From a virus, in IMG/VR virus record IMGVR_UViG_3300006734_000421, positions 1-23,396 of that record: a stretch of DNA of 23,396 nt; one strand, written 5' to 3'. The notes under the pieces were generated by a model. The model was not told the origin of the DNA. It saw nothing but the letters and a program-made list of their open reading frames with translations, and did not search any database. Numbering within the stretch: position 1 is the first letter of the stretch; each line of letters starts with the position of its first letter. Below are positions 6,044-18,132 of the stretch, in pieces. A program made the position numbers and the translations under genes.

Positions 6044-7239
6044 AAACCAACGTACATGAAGAATCCGTAAGTCGGATAAACTTTGTGTTTGATGAATTTG
6101 AAAAAGTGTACTTGTCGTTTAGCGCAGGAAAAGACAGTACAGTTATGCTTCATATTGTTGCGGAAGAAGCGAGAAAAAGAGGGATTAAGATAGGACTACT
6201 GTTAATTGACCTTGAAGGGCAGTATAAGCTAACAATAGACCACGCATTAAAAATGATTGACGAATATCGAGATGTGCTGGATGTTTACTGGGTTGCATTG
6301 CCTATGCACTTAAGAAACGCTGTGAGCGTATATGAGCCGTTTTGGTTGTGCTACGATCCAGATAAAAAGGAAGATTGGATAAGAACACCTCCGGAGTTTG
6401 CAATAACCGATGAGGATTACTTCCCGTTTTTTAGGAAGGGCATGGAGTTTGAAGAGTTTGTTCCTGAGTTTGGGGAGTGGTATTCAGAAGGAAAAAGAAC
6501 AGCGTGTCTTGTCGGTATTAGGACGGATGAATCACTAAACAGGTACAGGACTATTGCCAGCGACAAGAAGGTAAAGTGGAAAGACAAAGGCTACACAACT
6601 CAAGTAACAGAAAACACCTACAACGTATACCCTATTTACGATTGGAGAACAGAGGATATTTGGATTTACCACGCTAAGTTCCCTGATAAAAGGCACAACG
6701 AACTTTACGATGTTATGCACAGGGCAGGGCTAAGCATACATCAACAAAGGATATGCCAGCCATACGGTGATGACCAAAGAAGGGGGTTGTGGTTGTTTCA
6801 TTTGATTGAGCCTGAAACATGGGCAAAGGTTGTGAGCAGGGTTAGTGGTGCTAATTCAGGGGCGTTATACGTGAATGAATCAGGCTCAATAAACGGTTAC
6901 AATAAGATAACAAAGCCTGAAGGTCATACATGGAAATCGTTTTCTGAGCTGTTTCTTGAAAGCATACCAAAGCAAACAAAGGAGCATTATCTCAACAAGA
7001 TATTCACCTTCATAAAGTGGTGGGAAGAAAGAGGCTATCCTAACGGGATACCCGATGAAGCCCCGTATATTTTGGAAAGCAAAAAACTTGTTCCGTCATG
7101 GAGGCGGATTGCAAAGAGTCTTTTAAGAAATGACTACTGGATGAAGGGGCTTGGATTTACTCAACACAAAACAGACGCTTACAGAAAATACCTTGAATTG
7201 AAAAAAAGAAAAAGAGAAGAATCAAAATTTGAACTATGA
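6025..7239 (+). CDS. IbrA-like PP-loop (PAPS-reductase family, DUF3440) protein
   Basis: The 404-residue protein has the PP-loop SFSAGKDS at residues 31-38, which binds the pyrophosphate of ATP or PAPS, and the downstream ACLVGIRTDESLNRY block (consensus G-I-R-x-x-E/D-S) seen in IbrA and related DUF3440 proteins. It belongs to the adenine nucleotide alpha-hydrolase superfamily with PAPS reductase (CysH) and DndC. IbrA was first described in E. coli with IbrB as a regulator of eib immunoglobulin-binding protein genes; the chemistry is not established. The protein is cytoplasmic. It overlaps the ParB-like IbrB partner by four bases (ATGA), giving the standard IbrA-IbrB pair. It should not be read as a sulfate-assimilation reductase without evidence. 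Family assignment is confident, function is not. Confidence 0.85.
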   Translation: MPKYRLKTNVHEESVSRINFVFDEFEKVYLSFSAGKDSTVMLHIVAEEARKRGIKIGLLLIDLEGQYKLTIDHALKMIDEYRDVLDVYWVALPMHLRNAVSVYEPFWLCYDPDKKEDWIRTPPEFAITDEDYFPFFRKGMEFEEFVPEFGEWYSEGKRTACLVGIRTDESLNRYRTIASDKKVKWKDKGYTTQVTENTYNVYPIYDWRTEDIWIYHAKFPDKRHNELYDVMHRAGLSIHQQRICQPYGDDQRRGLWLFHLIEPETWAKVVSRVSGANSGALYVNESGSINGYNKITKPEGHTWKSFSELFLESIPKQTKEHYLNKIFTFIKWWEERGYPNGIPDEAPYILESKKLVPSWRRIAKSLLRNDYWMKGLGFTQHKTDAYRKYLELKKRKREESKFEL

Positions 7240-7868
7240 AAAACTTAGATGAACTACTAAAGGAGATTGATTCGTTGGAATTGGATCAAAAGGTTGAAGC
7301 TATAAACAGGGTCAAAACAAAACTTCATGAGATTAGCCCGTTCAAAGATGAGCCGGTTGACTGTGTTTTATGGGTTAAAAACGACACCGTTCACGCAAAT
7401 GACTACAACCCTAACAGCGTTGCTCCACCTGAAATGGAATTGCTTAGATTGTCAATCACTAACGATGGATATACTCAGCCCATTGTTTCTATGGAAGAAG
7501 ATAATAGGCGAGTTGTTATAGATGGGTTTCACAGAAACAGAGTAGGAAAGGAATGTGATGATGTTAGGGAAAGAGTTAAAGGTTACCTGCCTGTGGTTAC
7601 TATACGTGAAAGTCAAACAGGCATAAATGACCGTGTTGCGTCAACTATAAGACACAACCGCGCCAGAGGCAAGCATCGTGTTGATTCGATGGCTGAAATT
7701 GTGGCAGACCTAAAAAAGCGGAACTGGTCACCAAAGAAGATTGCTAAAGAATTGGGGATGGACCAAGACGAAGTGTTAAGGCTTTCTCAAATAACGGGTC
7801 TAACCGAGCTGTTTAAGGATAAAGAGTTTAGCCAAGCATGGGAAGAAGTTGATGGGAAAAGTTTGTGA
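7236..7868 (+). CDS. IbrB-like ParB/Srx-domain protein
   Basis: The 210-residue protein holds a ParB N-terminal/sulfiredoxin-like domain: a VHANDYNPNSVAPPEME segment (about residues 49-67), GYTQPIV, and the hallmark VVIDGFHRNRVG near residues 89-100 where the G-x-H-R motif binds a nucleotide in ParB-like proteins. Near the C-terminus an HTH-like stretch (SPKKIAKELGMDQDEVLRLSQITG) suggests DNA binding. Its start overlaps the stop of the IbrA-like gene, as in other IbrA/IbrB pairs. ParB-fold proteins of this type may be CTPases, nucleases or regulators; which applies here is unknown. It is the last gene of this transcription block, followed by a 125-bp gap with a promoter and a structured RNA candidate. 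Confidence 0.85.
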   Translation: MKNLDELLKEIDSLELDQKVEAINRVKTKLHEISPFKDEPVDCVLWVKNDTVHANDYNPNSVAPPEMELLRLSITNDGYTQPIVSMEEDNRRVVIDGFHRNRVGKECDDVRERVKGYLPVVTIRESQTGINDRVASTIRHNRARGKHRVDSMAEIVADLKKRNWSPKKIAKELGMDQDEVLRLSQITGLTELFKDKEFSQAWEEVDGKSL

Positions 7869-10049: not shown

Positions 10050-10295
10050 ATGAGACAAGACTACGTAGACGGAACACCTGACGACTGGCACGAAGGCAAC
10101 CCATTGTTCTCCAGAAATTACGGCAATCACAAGAAGCACTACTTTGAACACAAGCGATTCATTATAGGGGGTCGCAAGTACGAAGTAAGGGGGCAACGCT
10201 CCGCTGGTTACAAAGACATTTACCGAATCCGAAGGGATGATGGAATGGAAGTAGAGTGGACGATGCAAAAGATAGTTGAATGGTTAAGGTCTTAA
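10050..10295 (+). CDS. Hypothetical basic protein, 81 aa
   Basis: From the ATG two bases after the helicase stop, the protein has 81 residues (MRQDYVDGTPDDWHEG...), with a basic, His/Lys-rich middle and a C-terminal WTMQKIVEWLRS helix. The middle reads as beta-strands (KRFIIGGRKYEVRG, YRIRRDDGMEVEW), perhaps a small wrap-like barrel. No family recognised. It overlaps the PP-loop gene at 10280 by 16 bases. A longer frame opening at 9999 lies inside the helicase gene and is not supported. Confidence 0.6.
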   Translation: MRQDYVDGTPDDWHEGNPLFSRNYGNHKKHYFEHKRFIIGGRKYEVRGQRSAGYKDIYRIRRDDGMEVEWTMQKIVEWLRS

Positions 10296-11098
10296 GTTTA
10301 TCGGGCGGTAAGACATCCGCATACATATACGCTAATTACCATCAGGACTTATCTTTGTTTGCGTTGGTAACAAACGAAGAACCTTTGTGCGCTCACCCTG
10401 ACAAGGGCGTTTGGAGAGAGGTGCAGGACAAATGTGGAAAGGAAGTAATAGGCACGCCCGAACACCCCGACACTGTTAAGGTGGTATTGGATTTAGAACA
10501 GAAGTACGGCAAGCCGATAAAGTGGCTGGTAGGAGATACGTTTGAGAAAGTAATCAAAAACCACTCTAATGCACTTCCTAATCAAAACCAACGGTTCTGC
10601 ACTCAGGACATGAAATTGAAGCCGATATTTCAGCATTGTTACTTCAACCATGAGTTCGTTACCATGCAGATAGGATACAGGTATGATGAAAAAGAGCGGG
10701 CAGAACGGGCGACGACAGAGAGTAGGTATCCTATTCACTCAAATAACTACGGCACAAGGCGCAGAAAGTGGAAGGAAGTAACTTGGAGAGACTTGGAGTT
10801 TCCGCTTATTGAGGACAGGGTAGATCACTACCAAGTAGCTCAGTTTTGGAAGGGCAAAGACATAGTATTCCCAAAAGATTCTAATTGTCAGATGTGCTTT
10901 TGGAAACACCCTATGCAATTACGTAAGAACTATGACGACGCTCCCAACGTTATGCAATGGGCTAAAGAAATGGAGGCAAGGACGGGTAGAAGATTTTTAC
11001 ACAAGATGACAATGGAACAGGTTGAGAAGATTGCACCACAATTAGATTTTTTCTACGGTGGTGGGTCAGGTTGTTCTGCTGGTTTTTGTACAGACTAA
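10280..11098 (+). CDS. PP-loop adenine nucleotide alpha-hydrolase family enzyme with Cys cluster (PAPS-reductase-like)
   Basis: The 272-residue protein begins MVKVLSLSGGKTSAYIYANY, with the PP-loop SGGKTSA at residues 8-14. It then shows RFCTQDMKLKP (Cys 107), a feature of PAPS-reductase-like phage proteins, and a C-x-x-C pair at 203/206 (NCQMC) with further Cys at 265 and 270. Cys 107, 203, 206 and one of 265/270 could hold an iron-sulfur cluster, as in DndC and plant-type APS reductases. By family it would activate an oxygen or sulfur group using ATP or PAPS. It is not a duplicate of the IbrA-like protein: the motifs, size and Cys pattern differ. It sits between the helicase block and an HNH nuclease, so nucleic-acid modification is as plausible as sulfur assimilation. 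Confidence 0.75.
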   Translation: MVKVLSLSGGKTSAYIYANYHQDLSLFALVTNEEPLCAHPDKGVWREVQDKCGKEVIGTPEHPDTVKVVLDLEQKYGKPIKWLVGDTFEKVIKNHSNALPNQNQRFCTQDMKLKPIFQHCYFNHEFVTMQIGYRYDEKERAERATTESRYPIHSNNYGTRRRKWKEVTWRDLEFPLIEDRVDHYQVAQFWKGKDIVFPKDSNCQMCFWKHPMQLRKNYDDAPNVMQWAKEMEARTGRRFLHKMTMEQVEKIAPQLDFFYGGGSGCSAGFCTD

Positions 11099-13565: not shown

Positions 13566-14744
13566 ATGTCATTAGGATTCCAATACACCACCGCCATAGA
13601 TAAACTTCGTGAACTAACAGCCCGTAAAAGGGTAGTTCAAGGAGGCACGTCAGCAGGAAAGACATTTGGGATAATACCAATACTGGTAGACGACGCTATA
13701 AGAAATCCAGGTCAGGAGGTCAGCATAGTTTCAGAATCAATACCGCATCTTAGGCGGGGCGCAATGAAGGACTTTCTAAAGATTATGCAGCAGACAGGAA
13801 GGTACATAAATTCACATTGGAACAAGTCACTTTTAACATACACCTTTTCTAACGGAAGTTATATTGAGTTCTTTTCAGCGGATATGGAAGGAAGGTTGAG
13901 AGGCGCAAGGCGGACTACTCTTTACGTGAATGAGGCTAATAACATCCCGTTTGACTTTTACCATCAGATGGCGATACGTACCAGCGGAACGATATGGTTA
14001 GACTTCAACCCAACCACAGAGTTTTGGGCGCACACAGAAGTATTGAAGGACGACGACGCGGAGCATCTTATATTAACATACAAGGATAACGAAGCGTTAC
14101 CAAGCACAGTACGGGATGAAATAGAGAAAGCAAGGGATAAGGCAAAAGATTCAGCTTACTGGGCGAACTGGTGGAAGGTGTACGGATTAGGCGAGATAGG
14201 AAGCCTTCAGGACACTATATTTAACTTTGAGATAGTAGACACCACCCCAAGCGATGCAAGGTTATTAGGGTACGGCTTAGACTTCGGTTTTAGTTTTGAT
14301 CCCGCAGCGGTGGTTGAGGTTAGAATGATGGGGGATGACTTGTACGTTAAGGAGGTCATCTACGATAAGGAACTAACCAATCAAGACCTAAACTTAAAAC
14401 TGCATCAGTGGGGTGTTAGTGGAAAGATTGTAGCGGACAGCGCAGAGCCAAAAAGCATAGAAGAACTAAAGCGAAAAGGCTGGAACATCGAAGGCGCGCA
14501 CAAGGGTGCTGATTCGATTAAGATGAGTATAGACCTACTGCAAAGATTTAACATTAAGGTTACAAGAGATTCGGTAAATTTAATCAAGGAAATGCGCGGT
14601 TATAGTTGGGACAAGAACAGAACAGGGGAGTACACGGGAAAACCAACGGATAAGGACAACCACGCGATAGACGCACTGAGGTACGTAGCATTAAACAGGC
14701 TGCACAAGAAAAAAGCAGGAAGGATAGCGGTAAAATGGTCGTAG
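13566..14744 (+). CDS. terL: Terminase large subunit
   Basis: The 392-residue ATPase-nuclease has Walker A GGTSAGKT at 26-33, Walker B TLYVNEAN at 118-125 with Glu 123 as the likely catalytic residue, and an RNase H-like nuclease whose acidic metal ligands are expected at Asp 239 (GLDFGFSFDP), Asp 291 (VADSAEP) and Asp 369 (NHAIDALRY). It drives genome packaging into the prohead and cuts the concatemer. It belongs to the Terminase_3/PBSX-type group. It overlaps the following glycosyltransferase gene by ten bases; unusually, no portal gene follows. Confidence 0.95.
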   Translation: MSLGFQYTTAIDKLRELTARKRVVQGGTSAGKTFGIIPILVDDAIRNPGQEVSIVSESIPHLRRGAMKDFLKIMQQTGRYINSHWNKSLLTYTFSNGSYIEFFSADMEGRLRGARRTTLYVNEANNIPFDFYHQMAIRTSGTIWLDFNPTTEFWAHTEVLKDDDAEHLILTYKDNEALPSTVRDEIEKARDKAKDSAYWANWWKVYGLGEIGSLQDTIFNFEIVDTTPSDARLLGYGLDFGFSFDPAAVVEVRMMGDDLYVKEVIYDKELTNQDLNLKLHQWGVSGKIVADSAEPKSIEELKRKGWNIEGAHKGADSIKMSIDLLQRFNIKVTRDSVNLIKEMRGYSWDKNRTGEYTGKPTDKDNHAIDALRYVALNRLHKKKAGRIAVKWS

Positions 14745-15991
14745 GTATATGCACATATAATCGAAAGGAAACGTGCCAACAGTTAGTTAATGATTTAACC
14801 GAGCAAGGCGCGAGAGTTGTTGTATTACGGGACGGAGGCGAAGAATACCTAATTAAAGGCGCGGAGAACTACGCAAAGAAGAACGGGGGCAAGGAGGGTT
14901 ACATAGCCACCTTTCGGTATTTGATACAATGCGTATTAGAACACGCTGTCGATGAGTTGTGCGTAATGATGCCAGACGACGTAGAGATCCACCAATATAC
15001 GGTTGACGAGATAGAAGAACAGTTTTACAATACCCCCGAAGAAGTTTGTTGTCTTAACCTATTAGCAGACAACAGGACACCGCGCAAGCAATTCAAAAGC
15101 CACAAGCCATATATTGTACAGTCCTTCAAAACTCAATACTGGAACACAGGCTGGGTTGACGGATGTTTCGCTTGCTCACGCGACACGTTAGCAAAGGTCA
15201 AGTTAAAAGATATAGGGGAACAGTTCTTCAAGATGAACACCAGCGGGTCAGGATTAGGGCATAAGTTGAGCGAAGCGTTCAGGGAGCATGGAAAAATATG
15301 GAGTGTAGTTTATTCGTTGGTGAATCACTTGGGGCATGAATCTGTGATGAACCCTGAAGAGCGGAAGAAGCACCCGTTAATCACAAATTGGAAGCCCCCC
15401 GTTTCGATTATCATTCCTTACGTGTATGATAGGGGGTATTTAGAACAAGCGATTGAATCAGCAGAGGCGCAAGAATACGAAGGCGATATAGAGATTATCG
15501 AAAGTCAGTCAAACAATAGGGTAGGGTATAATATCAACAGAGGCTTAGAGGAAGCGTCAGGGCATTACTGGCGTTATCTGTGTGATGACGACTTAATACC
15601 AAAAGACGCAACAGACAGGCAAGTAATAGAGATGAATTTTGGTCATGACCTGGTACACGCTAACAGTTTGCACTTTGGTCCTAACGCAACGAATGTAAAG
15701 AAGCCAACACGAAAGCAGTTTAACGCACGACAGTTAGCGGGAAAGAACTTTATCAACGGTGGCAGCTGTATGTATAGGACTTCAAAGACCATAGAGATAA
15801 ACGGATGGAATGAGGAAGTATGGACGGGAGAGGAATTAGAATTTCATTTGCGGGTCTTGGCGAATGGCGGTAAATTAGGGTACTTAGATCACGTAACTTA
15901 CAAGTATAGAAAGCATGGGACGCAAAAGAGCAAAAAGGACTTTCACAAGAGAAAAGAGTATATCGAAAAGATTAGGGCAAAGTATAAATAA
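14735..15991 (+). CDS. Tandem GT-A glycosyltransferase (two catalytic domains)
   Basis: The 418-residue protein looks like two GT-A domains in one chain. Domain 1 (1 to about 215) begins MVVGICTYNRKET, has VVVLRDGGEE and an acidic MMPDDVE motif in the place of the D-x-D, and NTGWVDGCFACSRDTL. Domain 2 (about 225-418) is a full GT2: PPVSIIIPYVYDRGYLEQAIESA, IEIIESQSNN, the metal-binding CDDDLIP, INGGSCMYRTS, and the base-like GEELEFHLR followed by YRKHGTQKS. It would transfer sugars from nucleotide donors. Cytoplasmic, no membrane segment. It starts inside terL and shares its last base with a following ATG. Two domains could add two successive sugars. Acceptor unknown: virion protein, phage DNA or host glycan. 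Confidence 0.8.
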   Translation: MVVGICTYNRKETCQQLVNDLTEQGARVVVLRDGGEEYLIKGAENYAKKNGGKEGYIATFRYLIQCVLEHAVDELCVMMPDDVEIHQYTVDEIEEQFYNTPEEVCCLNLLADNRTPRKQFKSHKPYIVQSFKTQYWNTGWVDGCFACSRDTLAKVKLKDIGEQFFKMNTSGSGLGHKLSEAFREHGKIWSVVYSLVNHLGHESVMNPEERKKHPLITNWKPPVSIIIPYVYDRGYLEQAIESAEAQEYEGDIEIIESQSNNRVGYNINRGLEEASGHYWRYLCDDDLIPKDATDRQVIEMNFGHDLVHANSLHFGPNATNVKKPTRKQFNARQLAGKNFINGGSCMYRTSKTIEINGWNEEVWTGEELEFHLRVLANGGKLGYLDHVTYKYRKHGTQKSKKDFHKRKEYIEKIRAKYK

Positions 15992-16001
15992 TGAGAAGTT
16001 C

Positions 16002-16115
16002 GTGGGCTGGTTTATATTTGCCTGCATGATTACTTCTCCGCTGTTCCTTATACCTTTAGTTATTAAAGTGGCTTTCATGCCTGTAATGTGGTTAATCAGG
16101 AAGGTGTGGAAGTAA
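16002..16115 (+). CDS. Small single-TM protein, about 37 aa
   Basis: After the glycosyltransferase stop, a frame from GTG 16002 to TAA 16113-16115 encodes a 37-residue peptide with one strong membrane segment (GWFIFACMITSPLFLIPLVIKVAF) and a basic end (WLIRKVWK). The frame is open upstream to 15915, but that part overlaps the glycosyltransferase gene and has a basic composition expected of an out-of-frame shadow, so I use the short form. It might anchor the cassette's enzymes at the membrane. Modest support: size and start are uncertain. Confidence 0.4.
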   Translation: MGWFIFACMITSPLFLIPLVIKVAFMPVMWLIRKVWK

Positions 16116-16321
16116 AGATTAAATTTGTATTAGGGGAGTTCGTTTTCTTAAAGACAGATCCTGAGCAGAAGGAAAGACAGGTGACACGGATACAGATAGG
16201 AATGGATGCGGATGTGATGTACTGTCTTAGCTTTGGGACGGATAACAGTTGGCACTATTCGACAGAGATAGATTCATCGCCCAACGTGCTAAAAGTGTTG
16301 GGACTAAACGAAAAAGAATGA
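16106..16321 (+). CDS. SH3-like small protein, 71 aa
   Basis: From GTG 16106 (overlapping the previous stop) the protein has 71 residues: a short barrel-like pattern VLGEFVFLKTDPEQKERQVTRI followed by YCLSFGTDNSWHYSTEI. I recall similar 65-80 aa SH3-like proteins from Bacteroidota genomes and phages, with no known function. A GTG at 16088 would add six residues. The stop overlaps the ATG of the sulfotransferase gene. It may be a binding partner of the cassette, but that is inferred only from position. Confidence 0.55.
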   Translation: MEVKIKFVLGEFVFLKTDPEQKERQVTRIQIGMDADVMYCLSFGTDNSWHYSTEIDSSPNVLKVLGLNEKE

Positions 16322-16863
16322 AGATAGTAACGGCGGGGATGTACAGAAGCGGAACGACTTGGCAATTTAACGCTGTACGTGTTATCTGCGAAATGGCGTT
16401 CGGGGAGGATATGGTTTATTCGTGCTGGGTGGATCACTACAAAAAGGAAGACCCGCGACCTGTTCACATTATAAAGACCCACAAGCCACGCAAGGTGATT
16501 AACAACGCTAACTTCTTATTTAGTACCTATCGAAAGCCCGATGAAATTAAAGGCAGCATGGAGCGACGCGCGGTGTACTTGAAGGAAAACCCCGACACAA
16601 GATTTTCGGCAGAGGCGAACATAGCAAGGTTCGACGAGTTTATGGTATTTGCCGACCACTTTAGAAAGCGAGCAAACTACGTGCAGAAGTTCGGAATGAT
16701 ACGCAAAGACCCTGAAATGTTGATTCAGGACTACTGCGATGTTTTGGACGTTGAATTAAACCCTTCGGACGTTGTAAGGGAATTGGACAAGCAGATGAAA
16801 GTTCCCAAAAGCGGTTACGATCCAAAGACGTTACTACACGAAGGACATATAACAAAGAAATGA
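16318..16863 (+). CDS. PAPS-dependent sulfotransferase
   Basis: From ATG 16318 the protein has 181 residues. The 5'-phosphosulfate-binding loop is GMYRSGTTW at 7-15; IIKTHKP at 51-57 matches the KTHLP motif whose His is the catalytic base in sulfotransferases (His 55 here); FSTYRKPDEIKGSMERR at 68-84 matches the 3'-phosphate-binding block, with Arg 72 and Ser 80 at the expected spacing. It should transfer a sulfo group from PAPS to a hydroxyl or amine, most likely on a sugar given the flanking glycosyltransferases. It is shorter than usual (typically 250-300 aa), so the acceptor-binding part is reduced. Cytoplasmic, no membrane segment. It overlaps both neighbours by four bases. Motifs are clear; acceptor unknown. 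Confidence 0.8.
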   Translation: MKIVTAGMYRSGTTWQFNAVRVICEMAFGEDMVYSCWVDHYKKEDPRPVHIIKTHKPRKVINNANFLFSTYRKPDEIKGSMERRAVYLKENPDTRFSAEANIARFDEFMVFADHFRKRANYVQKFGMIRKDPEMLIQDYCDVLDVELNPSDVVRELDKQMKVPKSGYDPKTLLHEGHITKK

Positions 16864-17537
16864 AAGTAACGTGCAATATCGCCACGTTTCCACAACGGGA
16901 ACAAAGTTTGAAGACCATGTTAACTTCTGTGCTTAGTCAGTTCGACGAAGTGCGGGTGTATTTCAACAAATACCCTAAAGTTCCACAATGGGCTAAAGAC
17001 ATGGGTGTAAAAGGAACGGTAGGGCAAGACCTGACGGACAACGGCAAGTTCTTCTTCCTTCATACCATTGAAGAACATGAATACTACTTTACCTGTGATG
17101 ACGACCTAATTTACCCGAAAGACTACGTTAAGCGCACCTTAAGCGCATTAAACGACTATGGTGGGGTAATCACTCATCATGGGCGCAAACTACGAGGAGC
17201 GCGTAAGAAATACTACGGAGCGCATAAAGTGTACCATTGCCTAACCAACCAACCCGACACGACTAAGTTAGACGTATGTGGCACGGGTGTAAGCGCATTT
17301 GATACAAGAGAGTTTTACCCCAAAGGGATTGCGTTCGATGAGCGCAGAAAAATGACCGATCTTTTACTTAGTTTGGACGCTGTTCACTTCGGGGTTGATA
17401 TTACCACGATTCCACATAAGGGGAGCTGGATAAAGCACATTGACAACCCTGTAAGCATTCACGCAGAATGTGTAAGGAATGATGAACACCAGGCAGCGAT
17501 AGCCAACGAAATATACCGATTGAGATATGAAGATTGA
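16860..17537 (+). CDS. GT-A (GT2-like) glycosyltransferase
   Basis: The 225-residue protein begins MKVTCNIATFPQREQSLKTMLTSVLSQ, the N-terminal pattern of a GT-A nucleotide-binding fold, and carries the metal-binding YYFTCDDDLIYPKDY (about 76-90), nearly the same as the CDDDLIP block of the 14735 protein. Further on it has VCGTGVSAFD and a DLLLSLDAVHFGVDITTI region in the acceptor side. It would be a single-domain, soluble sugar transferase. It overlaps the sulfotransferase stop by four bases and the next, tail chaperone gene by eleven, so the cassette is welded to the tail operon. Confidence 0.75.
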   Translation: MKVTCNIATFPQREQSLKTMLTSVLSQFDEVRVYFNKYPKVPQWAKDMGVKGTVGQDLTDNGKFFFLHTIEEHEYYFTCDDDLIYPKDYVKRTLSALNDYGGVITHHGRKLRGARKKYYGAHKVYHCLTNQPDTTKLDVCGTGVSAFDTREFYPKGIAFDERRKMTDLLLSLDAVHFGVDITTIPHKGSWIKHIDNPVSIHAECVRNDEHQAAIANEIYRLRYED

Positions 17538-18132
17538 AGTACCATCAAAAGTAAAGGACTGCGAGTTGTGGCAGTTATACCAATTTGCACACCTTGACCA
17601 TTCAAAGGCAAACGACCACCGCGCAGCCGAATACATGGCAGAGGTGTTGTCTATATTTTGCGAACTTCCTGAAGCGGATATAATGGAACTGCAACCGAAG
17701 GACGTAAAGCCTGCGTATATCCATGTTATGAAAATGATGGGCGGGTTAAAATGGGATAGCATACCACCTGAATCGTTAAAAGTGGAAGGGGTGAAATATA
17801 CTCGCAGGTCCATAAACGAAAAGCAATGGACGTTCGGGCAGTTGGTGGACATGAGCAACACGGACTTTAAGCGACAATCCGAAAGACTGGCTGCAATGAT
17901 ATACATCGAAGAAGGTCGGACTTATGGCAATACAGACATGAGCGAACGTGCAAAAGTGTTTATCGACCATTTCCCGCGTGAAGTGTACGCTCAGTGTGTG
18001 GCTTTTTTTTTCGCATGGCGCAAGATTTCTATGTTAAGAGACACGGACCTATTAAAGCGGATGAAGAAAGCGACGAAGGTAAATCAAAAAGCACTAAAGG
18101 AGGTCAATCGACTTATGAGTGGACAAGGATAA
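17527..18132 (+). CDS. Tail assembly chaperone, G-type (zero-frame product)
   Basis: The 201-residue helical protein (DCELWQLYQFAHLDHSK..., LPEADIMELQPKDVKPAYIHVMKMMGG) has the size and helix-rich look of tail assembly chaperones of Bacteroidota siphophages. The best evidence is structural: nine T at 18003-18011 contain a T-TTT-TTT slippery heptamer in the right frame, and a second frame (17994-18278) opens across it in the -1 phase. That is the lambda G/GT arrangement. It would act in the cytoplasm, coating the tape measure protein while the tail tube is built. Forty residues follow the slip site in this frame, more than in lambda. Confidence 0.6.
   Translation: MKIEVPSKVKDCELWQLYQFAHLDHSKANDHRAAEYMAEVLSIFCELPEADIMELQPKDVKPAYIHVMKMMGGLKWDSIPPESLKVEGVKYTRRSINEKQWTFGQLVDMSNTDFKRQSERLAAMIYIEEGRTYGNTDMSERAKVFIDHFPREVYAQCVAFFFAWRKISMLRDTDLLKRMKKATKVNQKALKEVNRLMSGQG
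18003..18009 (+). promoter_or_regulatory. Putative -1 programmed ribosomal frameshift site
   Basis: Zero-frame codons are GCT TTT TTT TTC from 18001. The heptamer T TTT TTT (18003-18009) allows tandem slippage by one base, after which reading goes on as TTT CGC ATG GCG (from 18009) into the second chaperone frame ending at 18278. A downstream stimulatory structure was not established. Confidence 0.6.

Follow-up and report, generated by a model that had tools for sequence, protein, structure and literature searches.

What does a phage make with a sulfotransferase gene set between two glycosyltransferase genes, at the junction of its terminase and tail genes? The question is raised by virus record IMGVR_UViG_3300006734_000421, of which positions 1–23,396 (23,396 bases) constitute the window, the whole stretch of DNA analyzed here. 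The same virus is also represented by another public contig, 33,042 bases long, which is 100% identical to the window wherever the two were compared and reaches 9.6 kb further upstream. On inspection by eye, the open reading frames (ORFs) of this extra 9.6 kb appear to encode the remainder of the tape measure along with protease, capsid, portal, and fibre proteins, and the virus is therefore regarded as a tailed phage. The large terminase (terL) of the window shares 51.5% identity with those of Flavobacterium psychrophilum phages and approximately 35% with those of Bacteroides phages, and this likeness makes a host within the phylum Bacteroidota likely. The assemblies compared are fragments, and the genome contigs are incomplete.

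A sequence-only reading of the window had proposed that a tandem GT-A protein, a small membrane peptide, an SH3-like protein, a sulfotransferase, and another GT-A enzyme, encoded between terL and the tail genes, jointly build a sulfated glycan. We consider there to be an even chance that this cassette is an allele of a glycan-modification slot whose two glycosyltransferases, GT1 and GT2, make a glycan that is sulfated by the sulfotransferase (ST) and carried on a virion protein. Here, GT2 denotes the gene product, as distinct from the GT2 family of enzymes. The genes and motifs are arranged as follows.

13566..14744, + strand: terL, large terminase, left border of the slot (Terminase_3C 6e-13, PHROG 2 1.6e-33)
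14735..15391, + strand: GT1 N-terminal domain, GT-A-like, PDD motif by eye (alignment A7)
15392..15991, + strand: GT1 C-terminal domain, GT2-family glycosyltransferase, DDD motif (PF00535 3e-14)
15915..16115, + strand: small ORF with one hydrophobic stretch, start uncertain (ORF only)
16088..16321, + strand: small ORF, the former SH3-like protein (ORF; no family match)
16318..16863, + strand: ST, predicted sulfotransferase of the 3'-phosphoadenosine 5'-phosphosulfate (PAPS) type, 181 aa, lacking the C-terminal region IV loop (homologue alignments, fold search)
16336..16362, + strand: 5'-phosphosulfate-binding (PSB) loop of ST, GMYRSGTTW, residues 7–15 (near-invariant or invariant in alignments A2, A5, and A10)
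16474..16482, + strand: KTH motif of ST, residues 53–55, with the putative catalytic His (K53 and H55 invariant)
16531..16557, + strand: putative 3'-phosphate-binding motif of ST, R72...S80 (both invariant)
16860..17537, + strand: GT2, predicted heparosan-type enzyme resembling KfiA and the N-acetylglucosamine (GlcNAc) transferase of PmHS2, GT45-type (phmmer, profile, fold)
17097..17105, + strand: DDD metal/nucleotide-sugar motif of GT2, residues 80–82, context YYFTCDDDLIYP (invariant in 16 phage sequences)
14745..17526, + strand: variable cargo slot, terL to tail genes (interval comparison across terL relatives)
17527..18132, + strand: gene at the right border of the slot (homologues in loci L004 and L012)

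All five ORFs of the proposed run are present on the + strand at the coordinates first given, with terL upheld as their left flank. The genes are tightly packed, as had been described: terL and GT1 overlap by 10 nt, GT1 and the 15915 ORF by 77 nt, the 16088 ORF and ST by 4 nt, ST and GT2 by 4 nt (ATGA), and GT2 and the 17527 ORF by 11 nt. The base composition of the cassette resembles that of its neighbours, and ST is thus not marked as a recent acquisition. The right-border gene is probably the counterpart of the d1/d10 genes that precede g18295 in other relatives. Neither small ORF matched a Pfam or PHROG family. The SH3-like call, for which the family searches gave nothing, is not confirmed; the proposed membrane peptide does have a hydrophobic stretch, but its start codon is in doubt and no homologue of it came to light.

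The setting of the cassette was analyzed in 80 loci gathered by terL similarity alone (54–61% identity), with their cargo ignored. The gap between terL and g18295 varies from 740 to 4432 bp (median 2813 bp) and exceeds 1500 bp in 24 of 33 cases, whereas at the three junctions that follow, the medians are 2, −3, and 3 bp and the maxima 41, 4, and 125 bp. Five loci exhibit a bare terL-to-g18295 arrangement of 740–785 bp. Cargo was counted from single-linkage clusters with Pfam-supported members, by scanning representatives. Genes for methyltransferases, glycosyltransferases, or UDP-galactopyranose mutase occupy 25 of the 36 complete intervals: methyltransferases in 23, UDP-galactopyranose mutase in 2, and glycosyltransferases in 10, the last count including cluster d19, which is DUF3431, and a cluster d3 whose PF00535 match is marginal (0.035). 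The methyltransferases are of the Methyltransf_24, TylF, RMNT_CmcI, and FkbM types. Beyond the counted intervals, hexapeptide acyltransferases occur in further loci; the partial locus L079 combines one with a strongly matching family 4 glycosyltransferase, and in the more distant relatives L006 and L008, glycosyltransferase and hexapeptide genes adjoin sigma-like genes. UDP-galactopyranose mutase was observed in the slots of L051, L063, and L089 (GLF 2.9e-70 in L063), which suggests a galactofuranose-containing glycan in some relatives. The usual first gene of the slot, present in about 48 loci (for example, L054:8646-9302), is d0; its 219-aa product is highly conserved and bears the motif YLYAHTKG.

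Since glycan-type cargo recurs at the terL–tail junction across the clade and is confined there, its presence is more than chance. Within this variable glycan slot, the run of GT1, ST, and GT2 constitutes one allele, with ST as a lineage-specific extra. The earlier placement of the cassette within the structural operon is supported, with terL, the cassette, and the tail genes overlapping in this order on the + strand, but the feature that recurs is the slot and not the sulfotransferase.

The assignment of ST relies on its relatives and its predicted fold. By itself, the protein yielded no sulfotransferase match in Pfam, NCBIfam, PHROGs, or a phmmer search against the PDB, and a marginal DUF3541 match (E 0.02) was taken as chance. 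A tblastn search with ST, GT1, and GT2 against 50,697 phage records likewise gave no matches. Homologues were located by a motif-based DNA scan with the pattern GxYRSG[ST]TWxxN, which recovered true ST homologues from bacteria and from further viral contigs; most of its viral matches lay in unrelated ORFs (capsid-like or glycine-rich proteins) and were dropped. In an alignment of nine sequences, R10, G12, and W15 of the PSB loop are invariant, as are the Lys and His of the K-x-H motif (K53-T-H55). R72 and S80, eight residues apart, and the C-terminal D168 and H177 are also invariant in the homologue alignments. Most bacterial members of the family match PF00685. The closest phage relatives, in L183 and L184, exceed the PF00685 and PF13469 cutoffs; one BLASTP comparison with ST gave 28% identity across 181 alignment columns (E 4e-18).

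The AlphaFold2 model of ST, built with six sequences, has a predicted local distance difference test score (pLDDT) of 86 and a predicted template modelling score (pTM) of 0.84. All 50 of the 50 PDB matches listed in the fold search belong to the sulfotransferase family, many of them complexes with 3'-phosphoadenosine 5'-phosphate (PAP) or PAPS, and none is another P-loop family, a placement that would have refuted the earlier call. Among these, the best E value is 6e-5, TMq is 0.49–0.63, and identity to the solved sulfotransferases is about 11–17%. Profile A10 matches solved sulfotransferases down to 4e-16, which is weaker evidence for the window ST because this profile includes canonical members. 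Alignment and modelling confirm ST as a member of the PAPS-dependent sulfotransferase superfamily, in agreement with the PSB-loop, KTH, and 3'-phosphate motifs recognized earlier. ST shares its PSB loop, catalytic His, R..S motif, and core fold with the cytosolic-type enzymes (PF00685; SULT1/2, S4), but at 181 aa it stops before region IV. It ends at ...EGHITKK, where the homologue in L042 runs on GHITDGGVGTYLKTL with a GxxGxxxK-like loop, and alignment with homologues finds no C-terminal GxxGxWK-type PAPS loop in ST. We therefore do not place it in the cytosolic-type subgroup. For an ST of exactly this kind there are two assemblies, both of a single virus.

GT2 could be assigned more specifically than the earlier call of a GT-A enzyme, a fold that is borne out. 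Searched alone by phmmer, it matches heparosan synthase 2 (PmHS2) at 3.5e-21 and KfiA at 5.4e-10; the corresponding values for the family profile are 1.6e-50 and 3.9e-32, while PF00535 reaches only 0.023. The GT2 model (pLDDT 94) overlays PmHS2 with a TMq of 0.90, 26% identity, and a Foldseek E of 9e-21. The alignment with these enzymes covers nearly the whole length of GT2 and includes the DDD motif (YYFTCDDDLIYP in GT2, YYITCDDDIIYP in PmHS2). The phage family comprises 19 viral loci with the motif YYFTCDDDxIYP. By alignment and model, GT2 is a homologue of heparosan-type (GT45-type) GlcNAc-transferases with UDP-GlcNAc as the putative donor. It differs from PmHS2 and KfiA in that it is a single-domain protein encoded beside a sulfotransferase, and its glucuronic acid (GlcA) transferase partner and product are putative. 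A search for homologues of heparosan-type glycosyltransferases in 345 genomes of one phylum (that to which a Chitinophagales metagenome-assembled genome belongs) gave only weak matches (best E 8e-8), and the phage family therefore does not appear to be a generic host glycosyltransferase.

GT1 is indeed a tandem GT-A protein, as proposed, with a PF00535 match of its C-terminal domain above cutoff. The profile of this domain (A6) matches 6p61, an unnamed glycosyltransferase, at 6e-12 and residues 434–590 of chondroitin synthase 2z86 at 1.8e-10, and the domain weakly matches the N-domain of PmHS2. Since the unnamed enzyme matches better than 2z86, a GlcA-transferase role is only possible. The hidden Markov model of the N-terminal domain matches proteins of L012 and L016 at about 1e-109, both of which are members of the profile; a profile search of the PDB gave no match below 0.1 for this domain. 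The two GT1 domains and the GT45-type domain are fused in every pairwise combination across phages: GT1N–GT1C in the window, GT1N–GT45 in L012 and L016, and GT45–GT1C in L005, the last recalling the fusion of a GT2-family domain in the PmHS2/KfiA group. GT1C and GT45 are separate neighbours in L006–L009. The fusions are good evidence, from domain architecture, that the three domains would serve one pathway.

Sulfotransferases also accompany modification genes elsewhere. Two other viral lineages of the ST family were found, both inside modification clusters. In L183/L184, the ST relatives adjoin an FkbM methyltransferase, two GT-like ORFs identified by eye (no Pfam match), and an intein-bearing epimerase; in L042/L043, they adjoin a TylF methyltransferase, with a GT9 gene about 5 kb away. 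Sulfotransferases of this family thus do occur beside glycan or methyltransferase genes in other phage lineages, and the second condition under which the sequence-only reading would have been refuted fails. The epimerase of L183 (6584-8746, − strand) and L184 is a sugar-nucleotide enzyme split by an intein with a LAGLIDADG domain. The large phage of L042/L043 also encodes several paralogues starting MSLKRDIEAIYVLEPWYSKLRYE among nucleotide-metabolism and methyltransferase genes.

Tracing d0 homologues led to Synechococcus phage S-SRM01, in which gp339–gp349 include a 2-oxoglutarate oxygenase, a d0-like protein, an annotated sulfotransferase, a beta-1,4-glycosyltransferase, and a nucleotide-sugar epimerase. 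The sulfotransferase lies two genes from the glycosyltransferase and three from the d0 homologue, downstream of baseplate and tail-fibre genes. However, S-SRM01 is a 240-kb cyanophage whose 260-aa sulfotransferase has strong Pfam matches, its cluster is not a terL-adjacent slot, and its function is putative. The role of phage sulfotransferases has been described as unclear (PMC10580990).

A parallel in operon layout is the cluster O mycobacteriophage Corndog, whose genes for glycosyltransferases and an O-methyltransferase are located between those for portal and protease (PMC4351075). These enzymes were detected in infected cells and not identified among the virion proteins, and capsid glycosylation involves gp38 (PMC4351075; PMC12363180). 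Several mycobacteriophages, among them Che8, Corndog, and Myrna, have glycosylated capsid and tail-tube proteins (PMC12363180). Corndog shares with the window a short glycosyltransferase run plus a tailoring enzyme within the virion operon, but its cassette sits at a different place, its host belongs to another phylum, and its enzymes are of other families; no sulfotransferase is reported there, and here the slot content varies. The suggestion that the window represents an undescribed system therefore survives in part: glycan cassettes within structural operons have a precedent in phages of the Corndog type, and S-SRM01 has an annotated cluster, while the pairing of a sulfotransferase with a heparosan-type enzyme is a new combination.

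The gene order, the enzyme families, the predicted folds of ST and GT2, and the recurrence of the slot are shown above; from here on, we infer the following sequence of events. Late in infection, GT1 and GT2 would build a short cytoplasmic glycan, to which ST, putatively PAPS-dependent, would add sulfate. By analogy with Corndog, the acceptor would most likely be a structural protein from the same operon. The virion would then carry a negatively charged glycan, and its altered surface may affect adsorption, offer protection, or allow avoidance of binding proteins. A cytoplasmic acceptor fits better because the cassette encodes no flippase or lipid-carrier transferase. The joint function first proposed is plausible. 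The GT domains co-occur and fuse pairwise in other phages.

Several points weigh against this proposal. ST is absent from every other sampled slot of the terL-relative set, and ending before the C-terminal PAPS loop may reduce its activity; an enzyme so truncated and found in a single slot could be weak or inactive. The supply of PAPS by the host is assumed. The slot methyltransferases of relatives could act on non-sugar targets, and d0 has no family by Pfam or PDB profile search. Apart from these points, cargo was looked for among isolated relatives: the F. psychrophilum phage FPSV-D22, the one examined, has only hypothetical proteins annotated after terL, and no isolate with slot cargo was found.

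Alternatively, the late target of the cassette might be a host surface polysaccharide (capsule, lipopolysaccharide, or a lipid-linked precursor); the changed receptor would spare newly released virions from being trapped or keep out other phages. GT2 resembles the capsule enzymes heparosan synthase and KfiA, the UDP-galactopyranose mutase encoded in sister slots is an enzyme typically found in surface glycan pathways, and glycosyltransferase clusters of jumbo cyanophages have been interpreted as capsular polysaccharide modification systems (PMC7824862). However, no flippase, polymerase, initiating phosphoglycosyltransferase, or large membrane protein was seen in the slot, and the gtr families (flippase GtrA, bactoprenol glucosyltransferase GtrB) are absent from the window slot and the scanned cargo representatives. 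The position within the virion operon also suggests late expression, leaving little time for receptor change. We regard this explanation as unlikely, if still deserving attention.

It is slightly more unlikely that GT1 and GT2 form one pathway while ST acts elsewhere, on a protein, a lipid, or a small molecule, or is decaying, the gene order reflecting modular packing of cargo. The slot clearly mixes cargo genes, and the occurrence of ST in one slot, its early end, and its own lack of a Pfam sulfotransferase match would all agree with such a separation. Nevertheless, every catalytic and cofactor motif tested in ST is intact and its model is confident, the 4-nt overlap of stop and start codons at either end of its gene points to coupled translation, and its relatives in two other phage lineages also lie beside glycan or methyltransferase genes.

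Hypermodification of phage DNA, in which a modified base would receive first a sugar and then sulfate as a defence against restriction, is highly improbable, even though DNA-hypermodifying phage glycosyltransferases are known (Pyle 2024, as cited in PMC12619734) and nucleotide modification systems based on glycosyltransferases and sulfotransferases are stated to have been reported in phages (PMC10829341). The scanned window proteins include no hydroxymethylase, thymidylate-synthase-like, or TET/JBP protein, which, with contigs that are incomplete, weighs weakly against DNA modification. Hexapeptide acyltransferases and UDP-galactopyranose mutase, as in the sister slots, are unusual for DNA modification and count against it. 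DNA and host-surface acceptors thus appear less supported than a virion protein.

Three other features of the window were observed. At 6025-7868, a protein with DUF3440 and a PAPS-reductase domain (PF11922 1.9e-33) is followed by an overlapping gene that appears ParB-like by eye; we take this pair to resemble IbrA/IbrB, the second gene being unconfirmed by Pfam. A second PAPS-reductase/PP-ATPase-like protein with an SGGKTS motif and weak NCBIfam matches only is encoded at 10280-11098. Finally, the fibre-like gene at 1-336 and another in the upstream part of contig G001 (L044) have a C-terminal domain in common, with the pattern GDDGDLExGRxxDFxTLxxNNPFGNT; it may be a receptor-binding or tip domain that was duplicated.

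Returning to a sulfated glycan on the virion, a more specific version seems doubtful: a heparan-sulfate-like coat, with GlcNAc added by GT2, an alternating or linking sugar by GT1, and sulfate by ST, in which the slot would be a rapidly swapped locus for virion-glycan type in this clade of Bacteroidota phages. A compact sulfotransferase and heparosan-type glycosyltransferase cassette in a variable slot offers a small, testable system of virion-glycan diversity outside the actinobacteriophages. If virions carry swapped glycan types, the adsorption, decay, and recognition of phages in nature would be affected, and glycan synthesis would gain sulfotransferases and GlcNAc-transferases of small size.

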